Notes under the pieces: generated by a model
Databases searched by the model: none
Told to the model about the DNA's origin: nothing
What the model saw: only the letters and a program-made list of their open reading frames with translations
Program-made: the position numbers and the translations under genes
In this document: positions 6,937-10,037 of the stretch, piece by piece
Layout of the letters: each line of letters opens with the position of its first letter
Numbering within the stretch: the first letter of the stretch is position 1
Source: a virus
Length of the DNA stretch: 22,641 nucleotides
Direction: 5' to 3' (one strand)
Virus record (IMG/VR): IMGVR_UViG_3300042298_000781
Location: 1 to 22,641 of that record

Positions 6937-7044
6937 TTCTGGAGAATTCAATGGCCGCTTACTACAACGAGATTGATCCCTACGCCGCCCAGTGGCTGCG
7001 TAACCTGATCGCCGCGGGGCACATTGCGCCGGGCGACGTGGACG

Positions 7045-7051
7045 AAAGGAG
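7045..7051 (+). promoter_or_regulatory. Shine-Dalgarno for the +1-frame ORF inside the methyltransferase gene
   Basis: AAAGGAG lies 8 nt before the ATG at 7,060, optimal strength and spacing, in the middle of the methyltransferase gene. It decides the likely start of the overlapping +1-frame ORF. In the methyltransferase frame the same bases encode part of DERSI. Confidence 0.6.
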
Positions 7052-7059
7052 CATCAACG

Positions 7060-8013
7060 ATGTCAAAGCCGACGACCTTAAAAACTACACCCAGTGCCAC
7101 TTCTTCGCCGGCATCGGGGTCTAGTCTTATGCCCTCCGACTCGCAGGCTGGCCCGACGACCGGCCTGTGTGGACTGGAAGCTGCCCCTGCCAGCCATTCA
7201 GCGCAGCAGGAAAGCAGCAAGGAACCGCAGACGACCGGCACCTCTGGCCAGTCTGGTCAGAACTTATCCGCCAGCGAAAGCCTGCGGTTGTCTTTGGTGA
7301 ACAGGTTGAAGCAGCAATCCGCCACGGCTGGCTCGACCTTGTTCAAGCTGACCTGGAAGGAATCGACTACGCCTTCGCAGCGGCCGGTATCCCTGCTGCG
7401 GGCTTCGGTGCGCCGCACATCCGACAGCGATTGTGGTTCGTGGCTGAGTCCAACCAGTTGCAGTCCGAACAGTTTGCGCGGTCAGGGGCAAGACCCGGAG
7501 TTGCGGAAGGCGCAGGGTCATGCGGTGAACCTGCAAGATCAGGTACGCCTCGCCGGCTGGGTAACAACAACAACAACAACAAGGGACTGGAAGGACACTG
7601 CGGCGGACATCAAGCCGAGGGAGGATGGGACGGAGCGGTTCGATCAGCTGCCGCGGCAGGCGAATCTGGCGGGGTGGCAGACTCCGAAAGCGATGGACGG
7701 GGTGTTCTCGACACCACGAACGTCGGATCGTCCGATGCACCGAGCAACGCATCTGCAAACGCAGACGATGGCGCAACTGTCCGACAAGAGCGACCTCCCG
7801 GCCAACGGGCCGGCCCGACTAACGGCCACTGGCGAAATGCTGATTGGCTCCACTGCCGGGATGGAAAGTGGCGGCCAGTTGAACCCGGCACATTCCCGCT
7901 GGCTCATGGGGCTGCCAGCCGAGTGGGACGCCTGCGCGCCTACGGCAACGCGATCGTCCCGCAGGTCGCCGCAGAAGTCATCTCAGCCTACATGCTTGGC
8001 TGATCTCCTGTGA
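7060..8013 (+). CDS. Overlapping +1-frame protein inside the methyltransferase gene, 317 aa
   Basis: This ORF lies almost wholly within the cytosine methyltransferase gene in the +1 frame. Possible starts are GTG 7,024, ATG 7,060 (preferred, strong Shine-Dalgarno) and ATG 7,129 (5 nt after the methyltransferase TAG, suited to re-initiation). Its TGA overlaps the GTG of the polymerase gene by 4 nt, as at nearly every real junction here. Recognisable segments are [71 protein letters not shown], and [19 protein letters not shown] followed by [12 protein letters not shown] recall very similar proteins, often labelled as cytosine-methyltransferase-like, in other phages. No catalytic motif is visible, so function is unknown; a partner or specificity factor of the methyltransferase is a guess. 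Confidence 0.65.
7563..7580 (+). repeat. (AAC)6 trinucleotide repeat
   Basis: Six perfect AAC units. They encode six Asn in the methyltransferase frame and Thr in the +1 frame. Slippage in units of three would change both proteins' length while keeping both frames open. Confidence 0.9.
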
Positions 8014-10037
8014 CCGAACCCGTCGCCCACGGTGACTTTGAAACCCGCAGCGCCGTTGACCTGCGGGAAGTCGGGTTGCACAACTACGCCCGCCATGAAT
8101 CCACGGATGCGTGGTGCTTCTCCTGGGCCATCGGGGATATGGAGCCGGAAGTCTGGGTGCCCGGCGACAAGTTCCCTGACGTAATGCGGCGACACATTGA
8201 ATCCGGCCGGCAGTTCCATGCCTGGAACGCACCTTTTGAATTGGCGATCTGGAGCGAAGTCATGCGCCGTCGTTACAATTGGCCCGCCATTCGGCCCGAG
8301 CAGACGCATTGTGTGATGGCCCGCGCCTACGCAATGGGGTTGCCTGGGGCGCTGGAAGATGCCGCTCTGGCGCTGGGCCTTCCGCTGCTGAAGGATACTG
8401 AAGGTAGAGCGCTTATGCTTCGCATGTGTAGGCCGCGCAGCAAGCCCAACCAGCCGATTGCATGGTGGGATGATCTGGATAAGCAAGAACGACTGCGCAC
8501 GTATTGCCAGCAAGACGTTCGTGTCGAACGTGAAGTTGGCCGCCGCGTGCTTCCGCTCTCGGACAAGGAACGCCAAGTCTGGTTGCTGGACTACCAGATC
8601 AACCAGCGTGGCGTGATGATTGACGTGCCCACGGCCAAGGCAGCGATCACCCTGGCTGATACCATGAAGGTGAAATATGACGAACAGATGGCCGAAGCCA
8701 CCAATGGTGCCGCGACTTCATGCACGGCGCTTGCTCCGATCAAGGAGTGGCTTAATCAACAAGGCTGCCACAAAGCACTCGTTGGCTTGGCTAAAGCGGA
8801 TGTCACGGAACTGCTGGCCGACGATACCTTACCCGCTGCTGCCCGACGTGTCCTGACACTGCGGCAAGAGGCGGGCAAGGCCAGCAATGCCAAGTTCAAC
8901 GTCATGGTCAACCAAGCCGGCGACGATAACCGGCTGCGCAATCTAGTCCAGTATCATGGTGCCGCCACCGGGCGCTGGGCTGGCCGCGCGGTGCAAGTCC
9001 ACAATCTAGTCCGTGATATGCCGAAGGCTCACATCATTGAGCACGTATTGGAACTGGTGCGGGGCGGGCAGCATGAAGCTATCGACATGATCTACGGGCC
9101 GCCACTGTCCATGGTGTCCCGGTGTATGCGGTCGTTCTTTACGGCAGCGCCCGGCAAGATGCTGCTGGCGGCGGACTTCTCAAACGTCGAAGGGCGGGGC
9201 GCTGCGTGGTTCGCTGGCGAACACTGGAAGATCGAAGCCTTCCGCGCAGCCGACGCCAAGACAGGGCCGGGCATCTACGAGTTGGCCTATGCCAAGTCGT
9301 TCAACGTGCCGGTGGAGTCTGTCAAGAATCCCTCGGAAGAACGGCAGGTCGGCAAGACGATGGAGTTGGCTTTCGGCTACCAGGGTGGGGCCGGCAGCTT
9401 TCATGTGATGGGCAAAACTTACGGAGTGAAAGTCACCGATGAAAAAGCAGACGAGTTCAAAAACGCCTGGCGCTCGGCGCACCCGCGCATCGTCGGCACG
9501 TGGTATGGCATCCAAAGGGCGGCAATCAGCGCCGTCAAAAACCCCGGCGAAGTCTACGCTTGCGGCCACCCCGGTCGCCAAGCCAAGTTTAAAGTGGCCG
9601 GTTCGTTTCTATGGTGCCTGCTGCCAAGCGGTCGCGCAATTTGCTATCCGTATCCGAAATTGCTGGAAGGCGAATACGGGCCGCAGCTGACCTACATGAC
9701 CAACCCTTCCCCGGACGACCGGAAGAAGGGCAAGGTCATCAAGGATCCGCAGAACTCGGCCAACTGGGCGCGGGTCGGCACCTACGGCGGCAGCCTGTTC
9801 AACAACATTATCCAAGGCACCTGCCGTGACCTGCTGGCGGATTGCATGTTGCGTTTGTCCGCCCTTGGTGCTAACATAGTTCTTCACGTCCATGACGAAG
9901 CGGTTGTGGAAGTTGACGCGGACAAGGCAGAAGCCGCGCGCCAGAAGATGCAGGAGATCATGCGAACCCCGCCCGAGTGGGCTGCCGGGTTCCCCCTTTG
10001 GGCTGACTGCGGAGCGATGAAACGATATGGTAAGTAA
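8010..10037 (+). CDS. DNA polymerase, family A, with 3'-5' exonuclease domain
   Basis: A 675-residue replicative polymerase. The exonuclease domain shows HGDFETRS (Exo I, D9 and E11), [12 protein letters not shown] (Exo II, with Glu77 where the textbook residue is Asp) and YCQQD (Exo III, Y165, D169). The polymerase domain shows [11 protein letters not shown] (motif A, D389), [16 protein letters not shown] (motif B, R445, K449, Y457) and [10 protein letters not shown] (motif C, H628-D629-E630). There is no N-terminal 5'-3' exonuclease domain, as usual for phage enzymes. The GTG start overlaps the stop of the +1-frame ORF by 4 nt, while the methyltransferase stop lies 6 nt upstream. Its own end overlaps the primase gene by 11 nt, coupling polymerase and primase expression. 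Confidence 0.95.

Follow-up and report, generated by a model that had tools for sequence, protein, structure and literature searches.

The 22.6-kb virus record analysed here in full (hereafter the window) carried a replication block composed of an exonuclease, a ssDNA-binding protein, a family A polymerase and a primase-helicase, together with tail and virion genes. Two reading frames were superimposed just ahead of the polymerase gene. Frame B (6951..8003, +) encoded a cytosine-5 DNA methyltransferase catalytic chain comprising motifs I-VIII and X, 350 residues long on readthrough of a TAG codon at Trp58 (7122..7124, +). Frame A (7060..8013, +), in +1 relative to B, was open from ATG 7060 to TGA 8011-8013 and encoded a 317-residue chain containing GWxTP-type repeats, its C-terminus being motif IX-like. 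An initial annotation of this DNA had described a +1 frame open over more than 300 codons, preceded by an AAAGGAG Shine-Dalgarno sequence and joined to the polymerase gene by a GTGA overlap that the methyltransferase stop does not form, and each of these elements was recovered: the Shine-Dalgarno sequence (7045..7051, +) ended 8 nt before ATG 7060, the TGA of A overlapped the polymerase GTG (GTGA, 8010..8013, +) and B ended at TGA 8001-8003. The same four-nt overlap had been attributed to ten other genes, which held for the seven plus-strand junctions checked (970, 1296, 2180, 2407, 4884, 12071 and 19530). No restriction endonuclease gene was recognised adjoining the methyltransferase locus.

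Frame B was assigned from PHROG 363, from its matches to PF00145 (E 4e-16) and to residues 71-180 of M.HhaI, and from an AF2 model whose best Foldseek matches were M.HhaI and M.HaeIII. Both the PCQ motif (PCQPF, residues 79-83) and the catalytic-domain fold were found, the catalytic cysteine C80 being invariant in the B alignment. The model displayed a mostly confident catalytic domain (approximately residues 1-170) and, beyond a low-confidence, structureless stretch at about 180-295, a final helix in motif X that was again confident. The structureless stretch corresponds, in a single-chain enzyme, to the position of the recognition domain and of motif IX. These parts, expected between motifs VIII and X, were missing from the B chain, and parts matching them were encountered in A. 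In profile-profile comparisons with single-chain mycobacteriophage enzymes, B aligned over motifs IV-VIII with E 3e-18 and, weakly, over motif X (E 0.011).

The Shine-Dalgarno sequence and ATG of A sit within the DERSIxDV segment of B, the former lying in the codons for D-E-R-S; it was identified from its sequence, its spacing and the codon bias around it. The arginine of this segment was encoded by AGG in 51 out of 150 relatives, against 6.9 % of the other arginine codons in the same ORFs. In 117 of the 150, its aspartate codon was GAT with a following G, giving rise to the ATG; GAT represented 37.7 % of the other aspartate codons. The start signals of A are hence maintained by an unusual codon choice in B, and AAGGAG, AGGAG or GGAG was found at 8-nt spacing from an A-frame ATG in many lineages.

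Searches with A returned 203 phage records, in agreement with the statement in the initial annotation that segments of the +1 product are conserved in other phages, and yielded 80 viral loci; A lay in +1 to a B frame in all 86 loci analysed. The bias of searching with A was removed by using B only, namely its N-terminal and catalytic sequence against viral contigs and the whole of B against GTDB genomes. A was present at +1 in 156/156 relatives found in this way (80 viral contigs and 76 bacterial-genome loci), among which near-duplicates are possible and a few had broken frames. They included planctomycete, verrucomicrobial, acidobacterial and many proteobacterial genomes, and the overlap mostly spanned 600-1,150 nt. 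When the whole 22.6-kb window was used in a near-match DNA search, all of the matches listed (eight of the 54 phage records) were confined to the dual-coding gene; Xanthomonas and Bordetella phage records matched about 150 bp of its C-terminal part with 87-89 % identity.

Conservation of A beyond the level forced by the methyltransferase was assessed by synonymous codon shuffling of B; the methyltransferase protein then stays unchanged, and A acquires a mean of 4.4 stops. The A profile score exceeded that of every shuffle in 143 out of 143 genes (100 shuffles each; median z 14). The mirror test likewise showed B to be conserved beyond what A forces in 157/157. With separate training and test sets, residues 55-125, 126-250 and 251-300 of A outscored all shuffles in 64/65, 57/57 and 65/65 genes, respectively. 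Fourfold-site diversity in B decreased from 0.66 before the start of A to 0.59 over motifs I-IV, 0.37 over V-VIII and 0.24 over the C-terminus.

These tests bear on the idea that A is a shadow ORF, never translated, whose openness and similarity are forced by the methyltransferase frame and by GC-rich codon usage. For the window, openness is indeed not significant: its A frame (scored on L087, identical in sequence, downstream of the TAG) stayed open in 38 % of synonymous shuffles of B, so that open-frame length was rejected as evidence and the case for A rests on conservation, length being unremarkable in this 62 % GC stretch. The first 54 residues of A were also mostly forced by B; they outscored all shuffles in 44 of 65 genes and not in the window. 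An apparent similarity between the N-terminal half of A and mycobacteriophage methyltransferases read in their +1 frame (E 8e-7) was discarded as entirely forced, synonymous shuffles scoring equally well or better. The shuffle tests over the rest of A, the synonymous constraint, the codon bias at its start signals and its occurrence in every locus retrieved with B nevertheless already contradict a shadow ORF, which is thus hardly credible. The claim that two proteins are selected in one stretch was upheld by conservation in both directions, by synonymous constraint and by the conserved start signals of A: dual coding at 7060-8013 is real and is established by computation.

Frame A was assigned from PHROG 1008 and 31772, from the shuffle tests and from a profile alignment to single-chain enzymes over their recognition region and motif IX. 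Its residues 55-125 (7222..7434, +), overlying motifs V-VIII of B, comprised a predicted helix (71-90) and beta hairpin (96-103, 109-116). The variable recognition region (7561..7830, +) overlay the predicted disordered stretch of B, and members of the family displayed zero to five WxTP repeats per protein (counted with a simple pattern), followed by a C-terminal segment. Residues 114-289 aligned with the motif VIII-X interval, motif IX included, of single-chain mycobacteriophage enzymes (probability 91 %; E 1.3e-6 in a one-profile comparison, the match being to a single family and motif IX being short). This match was not reproduced with 15 A alignments regenerated from synonymous shuffles of B, which gave E 0.09-0.43. 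The motif IX-like segment (7879..7929, +) overlapped the stretch of B directly before motif X; from its place and the general motif pattern, the LNP..RWLMG segment of A probably represents motif IX. An AF2 model of A alone was poor (mean pLDDT 59.9) and gave nothing with Foldseek, and a PDB profile search with A yielded no match up to E 10.

The motifs of a single-chain enzyme are divided between the two frames, since A aligns with its recognition region and motif IX while B aligns with IV-VIII and X. The locus would accordingly encode one two-chain cytosine-5 DNA methyltransferase read in two frames, a reading to which we give a probability of about 0.8; computed from sequence and models, the split-enzyme function appears well supported. 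Frame B would provide the catalytic chain, with motifs I-VIII including PCQ, plus motif X. The small-domain chain, consisting of the target-recognition region with GWxTP repeats and of motif IX, would come from frame A, whose translation would begin at its own Shine-Dalgarno sequence and ATG inside B. Both chains would assemble into the active enzyme, A reading the DNA target, and the methyltransferase would probably shield phage DNA from host restriction. Points that weigh against this reading are the poor AF2 model of A, its lack of Foldseek and PDB matches and the interruption of B in this phage. A might instead be translated and selected for another role, e.g. as a regulator or an anti-restriction protein; its own fold was unrecognised and it was intact in several loci with a broken B, but the parts of the enzyme that are missing from B reside in A and align with their counterparts in single-chain relatives, which makes such a role unlikely.

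Comparison of the window with its relative L009 uncovered approximately 90-100 % identity on either side of the variable region and 39 % in the 7700-7799 bin, inside the repeat region of A. Exchange of a specificity cassette would fit this pattern. The start of the polymerase gene (window 8100-8599) was only 57-78 % identical to L009, regions further downstream exceeding 93 %, and this divergence suggests a replaced segment. Replacement of segments would then not be limited to the methyltransferase gene, because the polymerase gene also diverged over about 8100-8599. Before the variable region, the two sequences differed by 11 changes, of which three altered B (one being the stop) and ten altered A. 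As only three of the 11 touch its protein, B was under strong selection until recently. The ten changes in A are a point against the two-chain enzyme; they indicate that the N-terminal part of A tolerates change.

The catalytic frame of this phage was interrupted by the TAG at Trp58, a column occupied by tryptophan in all 59 aligned relatives (all 60 aligned B proteins). The TAG was found in four assemblies (the window, L006, L007 and L008, the latter three differing from the window at 0, 0 and 1 positions in 5-6 kb), while the codon is TGG in the closest relatives, L009-L011. The simplest reading is that TAG 7122 would be a recent, isolated nonsense allele. With a nonsense codon at an invariant tryptophan, full-length B of this phage is probably not made and non-functional, unless the TAG is suppressed. 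The TAG would separate motif I from the remaining motifs, and a product restarting at GTG 7167 would retain the PCQ motif without motif I. General recoding of TAG in this phage was considered and found unsupported: the window displayed no tRNA gene and no other identified gene that clearly needs readthrough.

The initial annotation correctly placed this TAG 4 nt ahead of ATG 7129 of frame A and proposed that termination there could feed re-initiation of the second protein and so couple the two outputs. Two observations go beyond that annotation, namely that the interrupted residue of B is invariant and that A resembles the recognition chain of the same enzyme. The position of the codon in four assemblies, its use as a stop in none of 18 checked window genes and the mostly silent nature in B of the changes since L009 speak for such coupling, conceived as a designed one. 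However, the TAG is private to this phage, its place being taken by TGG in L009-L011 and by tryptophan in all aligned relatives; of 128 aligned relatives, only 27 have a methionine at the position of 7129, and further upstream lies the conserved start of A itself, ATG 7060 with its Shine-Dalgarno sequence. The absence of a window tRNA gene and of any other identified gene clearly requiring readthrough also speaks against it. Re-initiation at ATG 7129 is therefore unsupported and designed coupling very improbable. Somewhat less remote, and still improbable, is that the amber codon does not mark decay, A being made without full-length B and having its own function or a catalytic partner encoded elsewhere.

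Several relatives departed from the common arrangement. In L018, L078, L125, L138/L169 and PMG1 (L288), A was open and B broken by a stop (a frameshift in PMG1) and L130 displayed the reverse, such counts being biased because A served to find some of the loci. In L114, L115 and L144, the two frames were swapped by indels in the variable region; in L144 the catalytic part of B read on without a frame change into a C-terminus of the A type, motif X lying in a third frame. These swaps may represent decay, assembly error or rearrangement. An intein-like insertion appears to interrupt the PC-QPF motif of B in L247:636-3131 (EBPR siphovirus 2 gp44). Frame A of this locus contained stops across most of the insert and was open again only from its last part on, so that A cannot start at the usual place.

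More distant loci were also encountered. In L248:1815-3081 (Roseicitreum antarcticum plasmid pRA03), a full methyltransferase frame, about 37 % identical to B where the two matched, was accompanied by a +1 frame containing WPTP repeats and LNPLFVGWLMGWP. As both frames are recognisable in so distant a locus, the two-frame layout is not confined to the family tested here. L246:1815-2786 (Streptomyces platensis plasmid) carried LPTP-type repeats in the +1 frame and motifs IX and X in the methyltransferase frame, and is perhaps another partition of the same enzyme.

Two-polypeptide cytosine-5 methyltransferases are exemplified by M.EcoHK31I (X82231) and M.EaeI. An alternate frame within the large gene encodes the small chain of M.EcoHK31I, and A is placed within B in the same manner. 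The genes of M.AquI are not known to overlap over most of their length. In M.EcoHK31I the large chain contains motifs I-VIII and X and the small chain motif IX, the predicted target-recognition domain being placed in the large chain; M.AquI is split in the variable region, motifs IX and X both residing on its small chain (PMC3404938). Compared by description, the present locus resembles M.EcoHK31I in its large chain with motifs I-VIII and X (X being weak here, E 0.011) and in the location of motif IX in a separate small chain, A. It differs in that the recognition-like repeats lie in A and in that no endonuclease was recognised beside it, while M.EcoHK31I is part of a restriction-modification system. 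With M.AquI it shares the composition of one enzyme from two chains and the split in the variable region, but not the assignment of both IX and X to the small chain. When M.EcoHK31I was sought in E. coli genomes by DNA similarity, the opened loci were prophage-like and none had a neighbouring restriction endonuclease.

Among phages, the single-chain mycobacteriophage enzymes (e.g. Fancypants gp73) similarly carry LPTPxAxD repeats and W(M/L)MGxPxGW between motifs VIII and X, although all in one frame and one chain. The overlapping 'DNA methyltransferase' ORFs of K1G and PhiXhv-18 and the 'Mte8-like' proteins belong to the same family with the same +1 arrangement; B of K1G and PhiXhv-18 is uninterrupted, unlike that of the window, and their annotation proposes no relation between the two ORFs. 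Annotation was inconsistent, K1G and PhiXhv-18 listing both ORFs and PMG1 listing A, while B alone was annotated in N15, epsilon15 and most of the opened E. coli prophage loci. No earlier description of this overlap in phages was found in the literature searched, which left out most subscription journals. The type of two-frame split was already known from M.EcoHK31I; its breadth, as the standard arrangement of a large family in phages and prophages, and its patchy annotation appear to be under-recognised.

Many annotated phage methyltransferases, such as those of N15, epsilon15 and the E. coli prophages, may fail if cloned from the annotated ORF only, because the likely recognition chain is omitted. 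Some 900 nt of same-strand DNA selected in both frames is an extreme case, and it is conserved among phages and prophages as well as in bacterial genomes from several phyla. The locus is a natural system for the co-evolution of two proteins in one sequence, and it also bears on how a recognition cassette is exchanged while remaining open in two frames.
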